Shown: in pieces, positions 11,217-28,896 of the stretch
Layout: the number at the start of each line of letters is the position of its first letter
How positions within the stretch are numbered: the first letter of the stretch is position 1
Origin: Candidatus Hydrogenedentota bacterium
GTDB lineage: Bacteria; Hydrogenedentota; Hydrogenedentia; Hydrogenedentales; CAITNO01
Assembly (NCBI GenBank): GCA_012523015.1
Contig: JAAYJI010000323.1
Span: 1-37,104 of the forward strand
Length of the DNA: 37,104 nt
Direction: 5' to 3'
Translations under genes and position numbers: made by a program
Notes under the pieces: generated by a model
What the model saw: the letters and a program-made list of their open reading frames with translations, nothing else
What the model was told of the DNA's origin: nothing
Databases searched by the model: none

Positions 11217-12854
11217 CTATGCGGAGATGTTCAGCCAGCCTACCTTCGCTTTGTTCAAAGCATATCCCACTTCTTGCAAATAATTTCCATAACAAGACAT
11301 GCAATGGAAACCGCGTTTTTCCTGAAGCAGTCGGTTGCCGTCGCCGTTGATGCGTAAATTTATTTGGCTGGTACAGATATCAAGTTCCGGATTATCCAGT
11401 ACCGTTGCCTCATAGCCGAGCCACCGCTCGCTGGCGAAATCAGGAGCGAGCATGGTCATATTTTGACCGGTTCTGAAAGCTACTTTAGGTGCGACACCGT
11501 AATCGGATTCGAAGTGGGTGCGCACGTGCATGCTCTCCAGATTTACGCCGTCCATTTTTCGCGGAGCCGTGCAATGGGCGACCGTAATGGTGTTGTTGTG
11601 GGGGAAGGTCGGGTTGCATAAGAAGACGGGTTTGCCGCTAATATAATGGAGCAGGATGCCCGAGGGAATCACAGCGAAATCGGATTCGCAAAAGGCAAGC
11701 CCCCCTTCATCGTTGATCAAGGTCAGGCTAAGGCAGGCGGTAGTCTCGGACATGGTGATGATCGTGCCCATACATTCGCTTACCGTGATGGCGTCCGTCT
11801 CATTCTCTTCCATAAGATCACGGAATACTTCGGTCAGCAGAAAGGCTTTTTCCGCAAAGGTGTACATTTCTGCCAGCGTATCCGGTGAGCCTGCTCCGGC
11901 GATCAGTTCCGCTGTGGTGAGCTGCTGCTGACGGGGGAGCAGTGTGATGCCCGGTTGTTGCAAGTATTCCCGAGCTAAATCGTTGCATTGCTTCACGAGG
12001 GCAGCGTTGGCGCGGGCGGCTTGTATCCGTTGACCCATCTCATCGTAAGGAATCTCTGCATATTCCAAGCCCCACAATTCTTGTGCCCGTTTCGGCGCCT
12101 CGCTCCCGCGGCCCTTGTCCCAGCCGATGGCGGCACCAATGGCGACCACACGTTTGCCACGGATATTCTTGAGTCCGTGCAGCGCCCGCAAGCGCCACAG
12201 TACTTCGTCGTAGTCGTCGACCACAACATCCCCGTAATCCATGCCGCCGGTACCCTGAGGCGCGTCCGTTTCCCGCCTAAAAAAGCGCGGATGGACAATT
12301 TCAAACCACAAGTAGGCTGGGCCGCTGTTATGGCGGACAAACATGAGATTATATTTGTTGGGATCGGCCAGTGCTAACATTAAACCGGTACTGCCGCCGG
12401 CACCGAAAATGAGAACACCATCATGATCTTCGGCGGCGATCGTCCGCGCTTCTTCCACAGAAGAGGCGGATTTCAACGGCAGCATTTCCAGCAGGAAATC
12501 GGCTTTTGCCGTCATGGCATCAAGTTCACTTCGTATTTTAACACGTTCAGCTTCCACATGGGATTCTGTAATGAGTCCGCCCCAGCCGCGCCAAGAGGTA
12601 GCATCCTGATAGCTGGCGATGGCATAGGCTAAAACCTGTTGTTTACGCAGTGCCTTGTCCTGTTTTAAGACGCGCCGCGGTAAGGTATCGGCAAAGGCGG
12701 TGCTGCCGCCCAAATGGTGCAGCAGTGCCCCTCCCAAGGCGGCGGCTCCCGTGCCGGCAATGAATTGGCGTCGGCTGAATTCAGGCGCTCTCGTGCCGCA
12801 GCAACCGGAACAATGGTGAGAATGGGAATGCCCGTGTTCTTCAGAATGACTCAT
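11217..12854 (-). CDS. Tat-exported L-fucose/arabinose isomerase-like protein
   Basis: A 545-residue protein with a Tat signal: SRRQFIAG (twin Arg28-Arg29) followed by a hydrophobic Ala/Gly segment and a likely cleavage near AFA-DT (about 55). Before the twin arginines is a metal-binding-like stretch HGHSHSHHCSGCCG (7-20). The mature part resembles sugar isomerases of the FucI/AraA fold: a phosphate-like Rossmann region GVLIFGAGGSTG, KRVVAIGAAIGWDKG, and a C-terminal half with VSECMGTIITM, NDEGGLAFCESDF and ISGKPVFLCNPTF. These are features of the family called fucose isomerase-like proteins in Planctomycetes and similar bacteria. ATG at 12852-12854 with AAAGGA seven bases upstream. Its exact activity is unknown; the catalytic metal ligands cannot be assigned by eye. 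Confidence 0.75.
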   Translation of the reverse strand: MSHSEEHGHSHSHHCSGCCGTRAPEFSRRQFIAGTGAAALGGALLHHLGGSTAFADTLPRRVLKQDKALRKQQVLAYAIASYQDATSWRGWGGLITESHVEAERVKIRSELDAMTAKADFLLEMLPLKSASSVEEARTIAAEDHDGVLIFGAGGSTGLMLALADPNKYNLMFVRHNSGPAYLWFEIVHPRFFRRETDAPQGTGGMDYGDVVVDDYDEVLWRLRALHGLKNIRGKRVVAIGAAIGWDKGRGSEAPKRAQELWGLEYAEIPYDEMGQRIQAARANAALVKQCNDLAREYLQQPGITLLPRQQQLTTAELIAGAGSPDTLAEMYTFAEKAFLLTEVFRDLMEENETDAITVSECMGTIITMSETTACLSLTLINDEGGLAFCESDFAVIPSGILLHYISGKPVFLCNPTFPHNNTITVAHCTAPRKMDGVNLESMHVRTHFESDYGVAPKVAFRTGQNMTMLAPDFASERWLGYEATVLDNPELDICTSQINLRINGDGNRLLQEKRGFHCMSCYGNYLQEVGYALNKAKVGWLNISA

Positions 12855-13139
12855 GCAAGTATCCTTTCGCTTGTTCGTGCCTTATGCAAAACATTCTATC
12901 ATAACCACACAAAATAATCGTGATCTACAAGGGATAAATTATTGAGTAGACGAGGCTGCAGCAACACGAAATGATGTCCATACTATTTTTATAAAAGCCG
13001 TACTTATTCAGATGATTGATCCCCAATGCAGGCTATGGAGCGCCTGTCGCCGCGCTCTTTTATTCGATACCGGACAAGACCTATTGCCGGGAAAGAACTT
13101 GCTTTTTTAGGCGCGATATGTCATCATATGGAGTGATAA
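12855..13139. other. Intergenic region between the isomerase-like gene and the gcv operon
   Basis: This stretch holds the divergent promoters of the isomerase-like gene (minus) and the gcv operon (plus), but I see no strong -35/-10 pair. A short inverted repeat ATATG-TCAT-CATAT (13117-13130) lies just before the riboswitch aptamer. No open frame is convincing. Confidence 0.5.
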
Positions 13140-13218
13140 CCTGTCGTGACTGGCGAGTAGAGGCGTGGACTTAACCACGGTGGAGCGGCAGGCATAAGTC
13201 TGGCCGATCGCCTGGGCG
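13140..13218 (+). ncRNA. ZTP riboswitch aptamer (pfl motif)
   Basis: The sequence carries the conserved pfl-motif blocks: CGTGACTGGCGA (13145-13156), CGTGG...CCACGG-TGGAGC (13164-13186) and CGCCTGGGCG (13209-13218). P1 is CCTGTCG (13140-13146) pairing with CGGCAGG (13186-13192), one G-U pair. P2 is CGTGG (13164-13168) with CCACG (13175-13179). The pseudoknot is GGCG (13152-13155) with CGCC (13209-13212). P3 can be GCC (13203-13205) with GGC (13215-13217), although the four bases GATC between are more than usual. These riboswitches sense ZTP/ZMP and turn on purine and one-carbon genes; here the next gene is gcvT, 46 bases downstream, which fits. Confidence 0.92.
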
Positions 13219-13263
13219 TATGACACGCGAAACTCAAGTAAAACACACATAAAAAGGTGCGCC
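13215..13263 (+). promoter_or_regulatory. Translational expression platform of the ZTP riboswitch, with gcvT ribosome-binding site
   Basis: The ribosome-binding site AAAGGTG (13253-13259) lies four bases before the gcvT ATG. Bases GGCGTAT (13215-13221), which start within P3 of the aptamer, can pair with GTGCGCC (13257-13263), covering the end of the Shine-Dalgarno and the bases up to the ATG (seven pairs, two of them G-U). The same GGC is needed for P3, so the two states exclude each other: ligand-bound P3 would free the site. No intrinsic terminator hairpin with a T-run is present between aptamer and ATG, which favours control of translation over termination. The pairing was found by eye. 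Confidence 0.6.
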
Positions 13264-14352
13264 ATGTTATACACGCCTTTACACGAAGCATACGAACAGG
13301 ATGGGGGAAAGGTCGTCGATTTCTACGGATGGGCACTGCCTGTGCAGTTCCGTGGAATCATGGAGGAACACCGTCACGTCCGCGAACAAGCAGGTATTTT
13401 TGACTGCTCTCACATGGGCGAATTCCTCATACGCGGCGCCGAAAATATACAAAAGTTCAGCGACCTAGTGATCGGCGACATGACGAAGCTCGCCTTGGGA
13501 AGATGCCGCTATACGGCGTTGCTTAACGAGGCGGGAGGAATCATTGATGACGGCGTCGCGCTGAGACTGGACGAGGAAACGCTTTTCGTGGTCACCAACG
13601 CAGGTACCTTAGAGCGGGTGGGCAAGCATCTCGCCGCTTTCGTGTCCGGCGTTGAAAATGTCTCAGACAGCACCGCGAAAATCGATGTGCAGGGGCCTAT
13701 GGCACCGCAAGTGATGGCTGCCGTTGGTTTTGAAGGTGTCGAGCGCATGTCCTTTTGGGCAGGCGGCACTTTCCTTTGGAAAGGTGTTGAGATGATTGTC
13801 ACCCGCGCCGGCTATACCGGTGAGCTGGGCTATGAAATATTTGTGCCCAAGGCTGAGGCGTTGTCGCTGTGGAATCTGTTGCGGCAGCAGCCTGAAGTGC
13901 TTCCTTGCGGCTTGGGCGCACGGGATACGCTGCGCATGGAAATGGGCTATGCTCTGAGCGGTCAAGATCTGAACGAAACACGTACGCCTCTCGAGGCGGG
14001 TCTGGATCGCTTTATTGCTTGGGATACCTCTTTTCCCGGCAAAGAGATTTTGGAAAAACAACGGAACCAACAGGACTACAAGGTCATGGTTCCGCTGCGC
14101 AGCAATGACCGCCGCGCGCCTCGTCACGGTTTTGAGTTGCGTCTGAATGGACAAAGCGTCGGCGAAGTTACCAGCGGCACTTTCGCGCCCAGTCTAAGTT
14201 GTGGCATTGGCTTGGGCTATATTCCCATCGCCATGGTCAGTACAGGATTGGAGCTCGAAGCGGGCCCTCGATCTTTACCTTTAGTGGTGGAAACAGCGCC
14301 TCTCTACAAAGAGGGGACGGGACGTAATCGTATTGAAATCCAAAAACCTTAA
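13264..14352 (+). CDS. gcvT: Aminomethyltransferase, T-protein of the glycine cleavage system
   Basis: T-protein transfers the methylene group from the aminomethyl-lipoyl arm of GcvH to tetrahydrofolate, releasing ammonia and making 5,10-methylene-THF. The 362-residue product has the normal length and the family N-terminus (TPLHEAY, VDFYGWALPVQF, DCSHMGE), a folate-binding central part (VTRAGYTGELGYEIF) and the C-terminal barrel (GEVTSGTFAPSL, GLGYIP). The ATG at 13264 follows AAAGGTG at 13253-13259. It is the first gene of a four-gene operon and lies directly behind the ZTP riboswitch. The next gene, gcvH, starts 20 bases after its stop. Confidence 0.97.
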   Translation: MLYTPLHEAYEQDGGKVVDFYGWALPVQFRGIMEEHRHVREQAGIFDCSHMGEFLIRGAENIQKFSDLVIGDMTKLALGRCRYTALLNEAGGIIDDGVALRLDEETLFVVTNAGTLERVGKHLAAFVSGVENVSDSTAKIDVQGPMAPQVMAAVGFEGVERMSFWAGGTFLWKGVEMIVTRAGYTGELGYEIFVPKAEALSLWNLLRQQPEVLPCGLGARDTLRMEMGYALSGQDLNETRTPLEAGLDRFIAWDTSFPGKEILEKQRNQQDYKVMVPLRSNDRRAPRHGFELRLNGQSVGEVTSGTFAPSLSCGIGLGYIPIAMVSTGLELEAGPRSLPLVVETAPLYKEGTGRNRIEIQKP

Positions 14353-14372
14353 GCATTGTGGAGAATGAACAA

Positions 14373-14756
14373 ATGAATCCGGATACACTGAGATACACCG
14401 AAGAACATGAGTGGATTGTCGAACAACGTGGATTATATGTGATCGGTATCACTGAATATGCGGTAGAAGAATTAGGCGAAATCACCTTTGTAGAATTGCC
14501 CGAAGTGGGACGCCATTTGGAAGTGGGCGAAGATGCTGCAGTCATCGAATCGGTCAAAGCGGCAAGTGATATCTTTGCACCCGTCTCCGGCGTCGTCGCT
14601 GAAGTCAATGATGCCCTGGAGATGGAGCCGGATCTCATCAACCGTGATCCTTACGGTAAAGGTTGGATTCTCAAACTCAAAGATGTATCGGAAGAAGAAT
14701 ACAACGAACTCATGGATGCGCGCTCTTATCGCGGCTATATGAAGACGGTGGAATAG
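14373..14756 (+). CDS. gcvH: Glycine cleavage system H protein (lipoyl carrier)
   Basis: A 127-residue lipoyl-domain protein that carries the aminomethyl group from P-protein to T-protein. The lipoylated lysine is Lys62 in ESVKAASD, and other family blocks are visible: TEEHEW at the N-terminus, GITEYAVEELGEI, and VNRDPYGKGW-like INRDPYGKGW. The open frame begins with a GTG at 14358, but the ATG at 14373 has GGAGAA eight bases upstream and gives the usual N-terminus MNPDTLRYTEEHEW. It is followed by a 198-base gap with a hairpin before gcvPA. No lipoate-ligase or dihydrolipoyl dehydrogenase (L-protein) gene is present in the window. Confidence 0.97.
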   Translation: MNPDTLRYTEEHEWIVEQRGLYVIGITEYAVEELGEITFVELPEVGRHLEVGEDAAVIESVKAASDIFAPVSGVVAEVNDALEMEPDLINRDPYGKGWILKLKDVSEEEYNELMDARSYRGYMKTVE

Positions 14757-14954: not shown

Positions 14955-16247
14955 ATGGACTGGATTCCGGTTACTTCTGCCGACGAACAGGACATGCTCC
15001 GTATCGCCGGTGCCGCGTCCATCGAGGGATTTTTTGAAATAATCCCTGAGGCGCTCCGTTTAAAAGAATGGAGCCTGCCCGAGGGACTCAGTGAATTTGG
15101 GTTGCGCCGTCACCTCGAGAGGATGGCAGAAAAGAATTGCACGCAATACCTATCCTTTTTAGGCGGCGGTTATTATGATCATTATATCCCCGCGGCCGTG
15201 GATGCACTCGCAGCGCGCAGCGAATTCTATACGGCGTACACGCCCTACCAGCCCGAGTGTGCGCAAGGAACACTGCAGGCGATCTATGAATATCAATCCG
15301 TTATTTGCAGATTGACGGATATGGAATGCGCCAATGCCTCGCTCTATGACGGGGGCACCGCCGTGTTTGAAGCTGTGTCTATGGCGTGCCGTGTGACGGG
15401 CCGACGCAAAGCCCTTATTCATCCGTCGCTCCACCCCGTATGGCGTCAAATGCTGGAAACCCATCTCGCGGGCTCACCCATACAGCTTGTTGATGGAGAG
15501 CATGCCGACGCAGAGACTGCTTGTGTCGTAGCCCAGAATCCGGCATTCTTGGGAGATATCCATGACTTCACCGAACACGCCGATCAATGCCATGAAAAGG
15601 GCGCGTTACTCGTTATGGCGGTAAACCCCATATCCTTGGGCATCGTGAAGACGCCCGGCGCCATGGGAGCCGATATCGTCGTTGCAGAAGGACAGAGCCT
15701 GGGTTTGCCCTTGGGCTTTGGCGGCCCCTATTTGGGCATTTTAGCGGCAAAGAAAAAACATATCCGAAAGATGCCCGGAAGAATTGCTGCAGCAACCACC
15801 GACACGGAGGGCAGACGAGGCTATGTGTTGACCTTGCAGGCGCGCGAACAACATATCCGCCGAGAAAAAGCACTCTCAAATATTTGTTCTAACCAAGCTT
15901 TGTGCGCCTTGCGTGCCTTGATCCATTTATGTTTGCTGGGCAAGCGCGGCCTTGAAGAGACCGCAAAGAGCTGTTTCTCTAAAAGCGAATATCTGAAAGG
16001 GCAGCTCGATTTTCTAAGTCTGCTTAATAAGGGAGCCACCTTTAATGAATTTGCGGTGCGCCTGCCCCTTCCTGCCGAACAAGTATGTGCTGCCATGGCG
16101 AAGCGCGGCTTCCTCGCCGGCTTGCCCCTCGCCGAATTGGGGCGGGGTGAAGCCGAGGATCTGCTCATCGCCGTCACCGAAAAACGCAGTCGTGAAGAAT
16201 TGGATTATTTCGTGAAAGAATTGCGGGAGGTCTGTACCCATGTCTAA
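14955..16247 (+). CDS. gcvPA: Glycine dehydrogenase (decarboxylating), subunit 1
   Basis: N-terminal half of the split, PLP-dependent P-protein that decarboxylates glycine and loads the aminomethyl group on GcvH. The 430-residue product shows family blocks FLGGGYYDHYIPAAVD, YTPYQPECAQGTLQAIYEYQ, NASLYDGGTA and GQSLGLPLGFGGPYLG, and RRGYVLTLQAREQHIRREKA. The subunit-1/subunit-2 split is the arrangement of Bacillus, Thermotoga and many other bacteria, unlike the single ~950-residue GcvP of E. coli. GAGG lies seven bases before the ATG. Its last eight bases overlap the first of gcvPB, so the two are translated together and should form a 1:1 heterotetramer. Confidence 0.96.
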   Translation: MDWIPVTSADEQDMLRIAGAASIEGFFEIIPEALRLKEWSLPEGLSEFGLRRHLERMAEKNCTQYLSFLGGGYYDHYIPAAVDALAARSEFYTAYTPYQPECAQGTLQAIYEYQSVICRLTDMECANASLYDGGTAVFEAVSMACRVTGRRKALIHPSLHPVWRQMLETHLAGSPIQLVDGEHADAETACVVAQNPAFLGDIHDFTEHADQCHEKGALLVMAVNPISLGIVKTPGAMGADIVVAEGQSLGLPLGFGGPYLGILAAKKKHIRKMPGRIAAATTDTEGRRGYVLTLQAREQHIRREKALSNICSNQALCALRALIHLCLLGKRGLEETAKSCFSKSEYLKGQLDFLSLLNKGATFNEFAVRLPLPAEQVCAAMAKRGFLAGLPLAELGRGEAEDLLIAVTEKRSREELDYFVKELREVCTHV

Positions 16248-17691
16248 AACTATTTTTGAAGCTTCCGTTGCCGGCCGTTTTGCCGTACTTCCCGACACCC
16301 TTGATGTGCCTGAAGCGGTGCTGCCCGAGTCCTTGCGCCGAGACACCCCTCTTGCCCTGCCCGAAATGAGTGAACTCGATGTGATCCGCCACTTCACCCG
16401 TTTGTCCCAAAAGAATTTTGGCGTAGATTCTCAGTTCTATCCTTTGGGCTCGTGTACCATGAAATACAATCCGAAGATCGCCGAAGTAGTCGGCGCATTG
16501 CCGGGATTTTCTAATGTTCACCCTCAGCAGGGCTCTTTTGAAGTCTACTTAAAAAGTTGTCAGGGCGCGCTGGAACTTGTCTACGAGCTTGAACAGTTGT
16601 TGGCAGAAATTGGCGGTATGAGCGCCGGGTCTTTGCAGCCCATGGCGGGCGCGCACGGAGAATTGACCGGTGTGTTGCTCATCGCTGCCTATCATCGCGA
16701 CCGCGGAGACACAGGCCGAGATACTATATTGATTCCTGACTCCGCACATGGAACCAATCCCGCCAGTGCTGCCATTGCAGGATTTAAAGTCGAGACCTTA
16801 CCTTCCAACAAAGATGGCGTCGTCGATTTGGATGCCTTCAAAGCCTTGCTCGGGCCCCACGTGGCGGGAGTTATGCTTACCTGTCCCAATACGCACGGCG
16901 TCTTTGAACCGGATGTGGCGCGTGTCGCCGCCCTCGCCCATGAAGCGGGCGCCCTTATGTATTATGACGGCGCTAATCTCAACGCCATTGTCGGACGCTG
17001 CCGGCCCGGAGAGATGGGCTTTGATGTGATGCATTATAACCTGCACAAAACCTTTGGAACCCCCCACGGCATGGGCGGGCCCGGTTCAGGTGCTATTGCT
17101 GTAGGCGAGAAATTGCGCCCGTACCTGCCCGGACCGCGCGTTGTCAAAGAAGATTCTTGTTTCTCTTTGCGGTCGCCGGAAAAGAGCATTGGCAAGATCA
17201 CGCCCTTTTTCGGAAGTTTTCTCGTAGGGCTCCGCGCCTATGCCTATATACGCGGACTCGGCACAGAGGGATTAAAGCGTGTAAGCGCCTATGCCGTACT
17301 CAACGCGAACTATGTATTGGCACGGCTTCGTGAAACCTTGCCCGCCGCCTATGAAGGTCTGTGTATGCACGAATGTTTGCTCACGGCTGAAAAGCTGACA
17401 ACCGATAAAGGCGTGCGTGCGCTGGACATGGCGAAAGCCTTGCTGGATCGGGGCTTCCATGCGCCGACCGTCTATTTCCCGCTCACCGTAAAAGAATGTC
17501 TCATGATTGAACCGACAGAGACCGAATCCCGAGAGACTCTTGACGCTTTCTGTGAGGCGATACGTGAAATTGTGGCGCTCGCAGAGACCGACCCGGAGGC
17601 GCTGCACAAAGCGCCGCAGCATCTGCCGGTAGGGCGCTTGGATGAAGTCAAAGCAGCCCGTGATCTTAATTGTGCCGACCTGCCGCTATGA
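16240..17691 (+). CDS. gcvPB: Glycine dehydrogenase (decarboxylating), subunit 2
   Basis: Catalytic PLP-binding half of the P-protein, 483 residues. Lys270 in YNLHKTFGTPHG is the Schiff-base lysine; YPLGSCTMKYNPK, QPMAGAHGEL, DSAHGTNPAS and GGPGSGAIAVG are clear family blocks. It overlaps gcvPA by eight bases (start ATG 16240, gcvPA stop 16245-16247) and ends the operon; the MFS gene beyond is convergent and 49 bases away. GGAGG at about 16226-16230 is a good ribosome-binding site inside gcvPA. The L-protein, needed to reoxidise GcvH, must be encoded elsewhere. Confidence 0.97.
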   Translation: MSKTIFEASVAGRFAVLPDTLDVPEAVLPESLRRDTPLALPEMSELDVIRHFTRLSQKNFGVDSQFYPLGSCTMKYNPKIAEVVGALPGFSNVHPQQGSFEVYLKSCQGALELVYELEQLLAEIGGMSAGSLQPMAGAHGELTGVLLIAAYHRDRGDTGRDTILIPDSAHGTNPASAAIAGFKVETLPSNKDGVVDLDAFKALLGPHVAGVMLTCPNTHGVFEPDVARVAALAHEAGALMYYDGANLNAIVGRCRPGEMGFDVMHYNLHKTFGTPHGMGGPGSGAIAVGEKLRPYLPGPRVVKEDSCFSLRSPEKSIGKITPFFGSFLVGLRAYAYIRGLGTEGLKRVSAYAVLNANYVLARLRETLPAAYEGLCMHECLLTAEKLTTDKGVRALDMAKALLDRGFHAPTVYFPLTVKECLMIEPTETESRETLDAFCEAIREIVALAETDPEALHKAPQHLPVGRLDEVKAARDLNCADLPL

Positions 17692-27603: not shown

Positions 27604-28896
27604 ATGAATGTGATGGTCATTGGCAGTGGCGGGCGTGAGCACGCGTTGGCGTGGAAAATTGCCCAGAGTCCGCTCGTGAAAAAAGTCTATGGCGCGCCGG
27701 GCAACCCCGGTATCGATGCCTTGGAAAAGGGTATCTGTGTCAATGTTGCCATCGACGATTTTGACCTGTTATCCACTTATGCGGAAATTGAATCCATTAG
27801 CCTCATCGTCGTAGGACCTGAGGCGCCCCTGGCAGAAGGTATTGTCGACACTTTAGGAAAGCGAGGCTTCGCCGTCTTTGGGCCTTCCAAAGCAGCGGCG
27901 CAACTGGAAGCGAGCAAATCTTTCGCCAAGGCCTTTATGGAGCGGCATAAGATCCCCACGGCCGCGTACCATGTTTTTGATGATGCGCAAGGGGCTTTGG
28001 ACTTTTTAAAAACAGCCGCTTTCCCCTTGGTTATCAAAGCCGATGGTCTGGCTGCCGGCAAAGGGGTCAGTGTTGTATACACCCTTTCCGAAGCGGAGGA
28101 AGCGGTACGTGCGGCGATGCTTGAGAATGTATTTGACGATGCAGGCGCCCGTATCGTTATTGAAGACTATCTGGAAGGCGAAGAGGCTTCCATCTTGGCA
28201 TTGTGCGACGGCAAAAATTTCAAGACCCTGGCAACCAGTCAAGATCATAAGCCGGCGCTGGACGGGGATAAAGGACCGAACACAGGCGGTATGGGCGCTT
28301 ATTCTCCGGCTCCTGTCGTGTCAGACGCCTTAATGGAAGTTATTCGCAGGGATATTCTTGCTCCCTCCGTGGCGGGTATGGCGGCGGAAGGAAACCCGTA
28401 CCGGGGCATTCTCTACGCCGGACTTATGATTACGGCGGAGGGTCCGAAGGTTATCGAATTTAACGTGCGTTTCGGTGATCCCGAGACCCAAGCGATTCTG
28501 CCGCGTATGACCAGTGACATTGTGCCGCTCCTCCAGTCTTGTTGTGACGGTTCCCTTGCCGCCCATGACATCGCCTACAGCCCATCGCCTTGTGTGTCGG
28601 TCGTTATGGCGAGCGGTGGCTATCCGGGAGCCTATGCCAAGGGTAAAGCGATTACGGGCATTGCCAATGCGGAAACCATTGACGGCGTTACGGTCTTTAT
28701 GGCAGGCGTACGCCAGCAGGGCGATACGCTTTTGACTGCCGGAGGCCGTGTCCTGAATGTGACTGCCACAGCGCCCACCCATGAGGAGGCTGTGCGGAAG
28801 GCCTACGCCGCCGTTGAACGTATTCATTTTGAAGGCGTGCAGTACCGCAGCGATATTGGCAAAAAAGCCTATCAACACTTGACCGAAAATGAATAA
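27604..28896 (+). CDS. purD: Phosphoribosylamine-glycine ligase (GAR synthetase)
   Basis: ATP-grasp enzyme of purine synthesis that joins 5-phosphoribosylamine with glycine. The 430-residue product has the normal length and blocks: MVIGSGGREHALAWK at the N-terminus, the ATP-grasp strand VIKADGLAAGKGV, and GGMGAYSPAPV plus EFNVRFGDPETQAILPR in the catalytic core. ATG at 27604. It uses glycine, the same substrate that the gcv operon consumes, but lies about 10 kb away on the same strand. The SGNH hydrolase gene follows within 30 bases and may share its transcript, although the functions are unrelated. Confidence 0.97.
   Translation: MNVMVIGSGGREHALAWKIAQSPLVKKVYGAPGNPGIDALEKGICVNVAIDDFDLLSTYAEIESISLIVVGPEAPLAEGIVDTLGKRGFAVFGPSKAAAQLEASKSFAKAFMERHKIPTAAYHVFDDAQGALDFLKTAAFPLVIKADGLAAGKGVSVVYTLSEAEEAVRAAMLENVFDDAGARIVIEDYLEGEEASILALCDGKNFKTLATSQDHKPALDGDKGPNTGGMGAYSPAPVVSDALMEVIRRDILAPSVAGMAAEGNPYRGILYAGLMITAEGPKVIEFNVRFGDPETQAILPRMTSDIVPLLQSCCDGSLAAHDIAYSPSPCVSVVMASGGYPGAYAKGKAITGIANAETIDGVTVFMAGVRQQGDTLLTAGGRVLNVTATAPTHEEAVRKAYAAVERIHFEGVQYRSDIGKKAYQHLTENE

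Follow-up and report, generated by a model that had tools for sequence, protein, structure and literature searches.

Nearly the whole 5' leader of a gcvT-gcvH-gcvPA-gcvPB operon in Candidatus Hydrogenedentota, the name that close relatives of its GcvT also carry, is made up by a ZTP riboswitch, which probably serves to turn glycine cleavage on by freeing the ribosome binding site (RBS) of gcvT. The operon lies within the window, by which we mean the whole 37,104-nucleotide stretch of DNA analysed here, and its features are collected in Table 1.

The covariance-model search that the original prediction had named as a possible refutation gave a significant match on the forward strand (RF01750, ZMP/ZTP riboswitch, window 13136-13224; cmscan, 55.7 bits, above the gathering score of 39 bits, with an E of 1.4e-06 for the window), which spans the full model (positions 1-86); no other ZTP match occurs anywhere in the 3.7-Mb genome. 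With the phylum model R1, which was built from sequences that include this aptamer itself, the score is 81.1 bits. The pfl-motif blocks and the P1, P2 and pseudoknot pairings were located where they had been predicted, the proposed span of 13140-13218 beginning with the first P1 base and ending shortly after P3. In the alignment of 35 relatives, all 8 of the 8 P1 pairs show double-sided changes and 97.6% of cells are paired, with the observed values being reached by 0 of 500 shuffles, while P2, the pseudoknot and the core are invariant; the GGCG/CGCC pseudoknot is present in 35/35 sequences and, as it never varies, gains no covariation support from these rows. What had to be rejected was the view of GATC in P3 (13206-13209) as an unusual extension, since it is the consensus loop of P3: the Rfam consensus at this place is GCCGacCGCCUGGGC, with the same spacing, and the four-base spacing is shared by all 35 aligned relatives, nearly all of which have GNTC. 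No Rfam model of a glycine riboswitch reached its cut-off within the window, where only the tRNA and ZMP-ZTP models reach theirs. Judged by its sequence, the RNA is a genuine canonical ZTP riboswitch of a known kind, with ZMP/ZTP as the predicted ligand.

As predicted, the riboswitch is directly followed by the glycine cleavage operon, with gcvT, gcvH, gcvPA and gcvPB each scoring above the curated NCBIfam cut-off. A putative promoter lies just upstream of the aptamer, and TTGCAT-N17-TGG-CATAGT occupies the same place in both congeners; a sigma-70 scan returned nothing and gives the putative promoter no score. Divergent from the riboswitch leader, the reverse strand encodes a 545-aa protein (11217-12854) whose start is rich in His and which carries a twin-arginine-like motif (SRRQF); no Pfam or NCBIfam match was found for this protein. 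The same contig also carries the glycine-using purD (window 27604-28896), without a ZTP riboswitch.

Table 1. Coordinates of the riboswitch, its operon and the divergent Omnitrophota leaders (window positions unless a locus is given).
Feature	Position	Strand	Remarks
Putative promoter, TTGCTT (13099-13104), 17 nt, TGT-CATCAT (13119-13127)	13099..13127	+	inferred
ZMP/ZTP riboswitch aptamer (RF01750)	13136..13224	+	covariance-model match, full length
P1 5' strand CCTGTCGT	13140..13147	+	pairs with 13185-13192; double-sided change in relatives
J1/2 GGCG	13152..13155	+	pseudoknot partner of 13209-13212; invariant in 35 relatives
P2 hairpin GTGG-ACTTAA-CCAC	13165..13178	+	GTGG 13165-13168 with CCAC 13175-13178; invariant pairs
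P1 3' strand GCGGCAGG	13185..13192	+	pairs with 13140-13147; same alignment of relatives
P3 hairpin GCC-GATCGCCTG-GGC	13203..13217	+	GCC 13203-13205 with GGC 13215-13217
Pseudoknot strand CGCC in P3 hairpin	13209..13212	+	pairs with GGCG 13152-13155
Proposed anti-RBS strand GGCGUAU	13215..13221	+	open P3 allows 7 pairs with GUGCGCC 13257-13263
Shine-Dalgarno AAAGG of gcvT	13253..13257	+	three species of the genus share an unchanged AGGTGCGCCATG
gcvT, aminomethyltransferase	13264..14352	+	TIGR00528, 288 bits, cut-off 236
gcvH	14358..14756	+	TIGR00527, 156 bits, cut-off 116
gcvPA	14955..16247	+	NF001696, 558 bits, cut-off 364
gcvPB	16240..17691	+	NF003346, 697 bits, cut-off 441
Divergent ZTP-like leader RNA	L056:199-285, L052:5746-5882, L167:623-710		Omnitrophota
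Divergent ZTP-like leader RNA	L170, L173-L180 (about 1501-1574 of each)		Omnitrophota

RF01750 matches were found in 59 of the 68 Hydrogenedentota genomes, at 76 places, of which 53 lie before gcvT, 19 before purH and 4 without an assigned gene, the downstream sequence being missing for 3 of these 4. All 72 assignable places thus precede gcvT or purH, in keeping with a placement before purine and one-carbon genes. Counted by genome, the switch stands before gcvT in 53/59 and before purH in 19/59 of the ZTP-bearing members, and because of the former number the ZTP-gcvT link is a rule of the phylum and not a peculiarity of the window. The comparison of the leader across related genomes that had been suggested as a check therefore upholds the prediction, with conservation before gcvT throughout the phylum. 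The ZTP-linked purH (L031:1653-2768 and the other purH loci) encodes the AICAR-formyltransferase part only (profile positions 200-510 of 510), and the cyclohydrolase part would need to be encoded elsewhere.

Outside the phylum, RF01750 matches were found in 21/294 genomes from the phylum to which L111 (Phycisphaerae, Planctomycetota) belongs, where the assigned targets are glyA, purH and, behind a tandem pair, formate dehydrogenase, and in 11/289 genomes from that of L100, a Pontiellaceae bacterium, where the switches precede pflB, pflA, glyA and multi-pass transporter-like proteins. No gcvT was found among the assigned places in these two phyla, and none of the 51 genomes (28 + 23) from other phyla with similar GcvT has an RF01750 match over the cut-off. 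The tandem aptamers before the formate dehydrogenase alpha subunit gene (L183 and L203; G736:C1, about 3156912-3157207) each have a terminator-like tail. In the phylum of L100, three RF01750 matches (L209, L211 and L212), each before a multi-pass transporter-like protein, have the P3 loop CGUCUGGG in place of CGCCUGGG, and in L209 and L211 J1/2 reads GACG for GGCG, which restores the pseudoknot. A candidate at L163 (23.1 bits) was discarded as a chance match inside a purine-biosynthesis coding region.

ZTP-like leaders were also found at two gcvT loci of Omnitrophota, one of them weak by model (24.1 bits with the phylum model, 23.0 bits with Rfam) and the other found by pattern. A search by pattern, and then with a covariance model trained on five examples, detected this divergent RNA in 11 of the 384 sampled genomes, or in 12 with the genome of L056 added; in 11 genomes the gene behind it is gcvT, and in 1 a bifunctional purH. 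In many members J1/2 has lost the final G of its GGCG, and P3 is A-U-rich, with AAAAUC and GGUUUU replacing GCC/GGC; in P1, two pairs show double-sided change. The RF01750 scores of all listed members (23 to 32.4 bits) are below 39. The link to purH argues for ZMP/ZTP as the ligand here as well. Intrinsic terminators, consisting of stems with T-runs that reuse GCCUGGG, overlap P3 and precede gcvT, as expected for the layout of an ON switch. On the same contig as L170 in genome G120, a second copy of the leader (L181) is found at a distance of about 1.15 kb from the copy linked to gcvT. Behind it come what seems to be the remnant of a gcvT start and, further on, an unrelated ORF; this copy looks like a duplicated leader.

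In the window, the linker between aptamer and gcvT is 39 nt long and contains the RBS; between 13224 and 13264, nothing resembles an intrinsic terminator. Within the genus, AGGTGCGCCATG stays invariant while the rest of the linker diverges, and, where P3 ends, GGCG(U/C)AU is complementary to the GUGCGCC that precedes the start codon, with a C-to-U change that preserves the pair. In other genera of the same family, a complement occurs in shifted register, namely GGUCGCCU with AGGCGACC in L017 and GUUCGCCU with AGGCGAAC in L022 and L029, and in L034 and L035 of this family GCGCAUCG pairs with CGAUGCGU, covering the start codon. The platform tests were devised after the sequences had been seen, and relatedness inflates their statistics; read in this light, the P3-RBS pairing score has a mean of 18.0 in the window's family versus 13.6 for shuffles, AGGCG adjoins the Shine-Dalgarno in 13/42 ZTP-gcvT leaders versus 21/221 other starts (p = 6e-4) and in 0 of the 17 placeable purH starts, the pairing in the window alone gave p_shuffle 0.09, and over the whole phylum the pairing is not significant (p 0.075). 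Duplex formation between the start region and the sequence that follows P3 gave a null result (own -11.7, other species -11.4, shuffles -11.6 kcal/mol), and constraining the aptamer gave a modelled gain in RBS accessibility of 0.049 versus 0.033 +/- 0.017 for swapped linkers. The minimum free energy of the leader (z -2.0) belongs to an alternative fold and, with pseudoknots not modelled, is uninformative. Taken at moderate strength, the capacity of the P3 strand to pair with the RBS or start codon in the window's family suggests translational control.

On these comparisons, translational control in the ON direction appears to be the best-supported reading, and both the direction and the level of control are what we infer. 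Here we propose that, when 10-formyl-THF runs short, AICAR transformylation would stall and ZMP/ZTP would rise; the ligand would lock P3 and the pseudoknot, and the locked P3 strand would be unable to pair with the RBS, so that gcvT would be translated and glycine cleaved to 5,10-methylene-THF and, through FolD, 10-formyl-THF. The association in 19 genomes with purH, which encodes the step that consumes ZMP, supports this ON circuit. An ON switch that acts on transcription instead, for example by way of Rho or of a cryptic terminator within the leader or the first part of gcvT, seems rather unlikely: terminators are used by many known ZTP switches (PMC2864571, PMC7337938) and by the Omnitrophota relatives, and the P3-RBS pairing is weak phylum-wide, but the short linker is taken up in part by the RBS and is free of terminator-like sites, and the RBS has its complement in the window's family.

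We consider it improbable that ligand would repress glycine cleavage, for example by sparing glycine for purine synthesis, given that ligand would free the RBS in the proposed platform, that an ON response is to be expected before purH, where this RNA stands in 19 genomes, and that the layout in the Omnitrophota relatives is that of an ON switch; in favour of such an OFF switch are the consumption of glycine in purine synthesis (PurD) and the tandem ZTP OFF system proposed before moeA (PMC9481103). A different ligand, such as glycine or folate, might be suspected as gcv is not among the targets commonly listed for ZTP switches (PMC2864571), but is highly improbable in view of the agreement of every core residue with the ZTP consensus, the presence of the same RNA before purH and the lack of any glycine riboswitch model at its cut-off in the window.

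The genes found agree with the proposed ON switch. The window genome has an AICAR-formyltransferase domain and FolD, and formate-THF ligase was not found in it (about 96% complete) or in its three congeners, so that the ligase is likely to be absent; among the genomes examined, 10/40 have it. Glycine cleavage yields 5,10-methylene-THF, which FolD converts to 10-formyl-THF. With FolD and AICAR formyltransferase present and no formate-THF ligase detected, more glycine cleavage at a shortage of 10-formyl-THF is a sensible response, and the metabolic logic of the original prediction is borne out by this gene set.

Compared with known systems, the RNA shares all helices, the pseudoknot and the conserved core with the pfl motif (RF01750), for which purH is also a target in this phylum, but differs in standing before a glycine cleavage operon without an overlapping terminator. 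In the pfl switches of Thermosinus carboxydivorans and Clostridium beijerinckii, which have the same aptamer and a platform that likewise reuses the P3 strand, P3 competes with a terminator (PMC7337938, PMC10085676), whereas in the window the competitor is likely the gcvT RBS. The glycine riboswitch (gcvT motif), which controls gcv operons in other bacteria (PMC7266159), has the same target but an unrelated aptamer and ligand. In the literature searched, we found no link of ZTP/pfl RNA with gcvT, gcv or glycine cleavage, nor of a riboswitch with Hydrogenedentes. The sensor is of a known kind, and its wiring to glycine cleavage appears to be little documented.

It is an evenly balanced possibility that glycine cleavage is a main ZTP target in two candidate phyla, through a canonical, RBS-exposing aptamer in Hydrogenedentota and a divergent aptamer with a P3 terminator in Omnitrophota. 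The Omnitrophota RNAs, which fall short of the cut-off of the current Rfam model, form a subtype that lends itself to testing. Together, these findings connect the alarmone for 10-formyl-THF with glycine cleavage as a supply of one-carbon units, in a phylum most members of which seem to be without formate-THF ligase.
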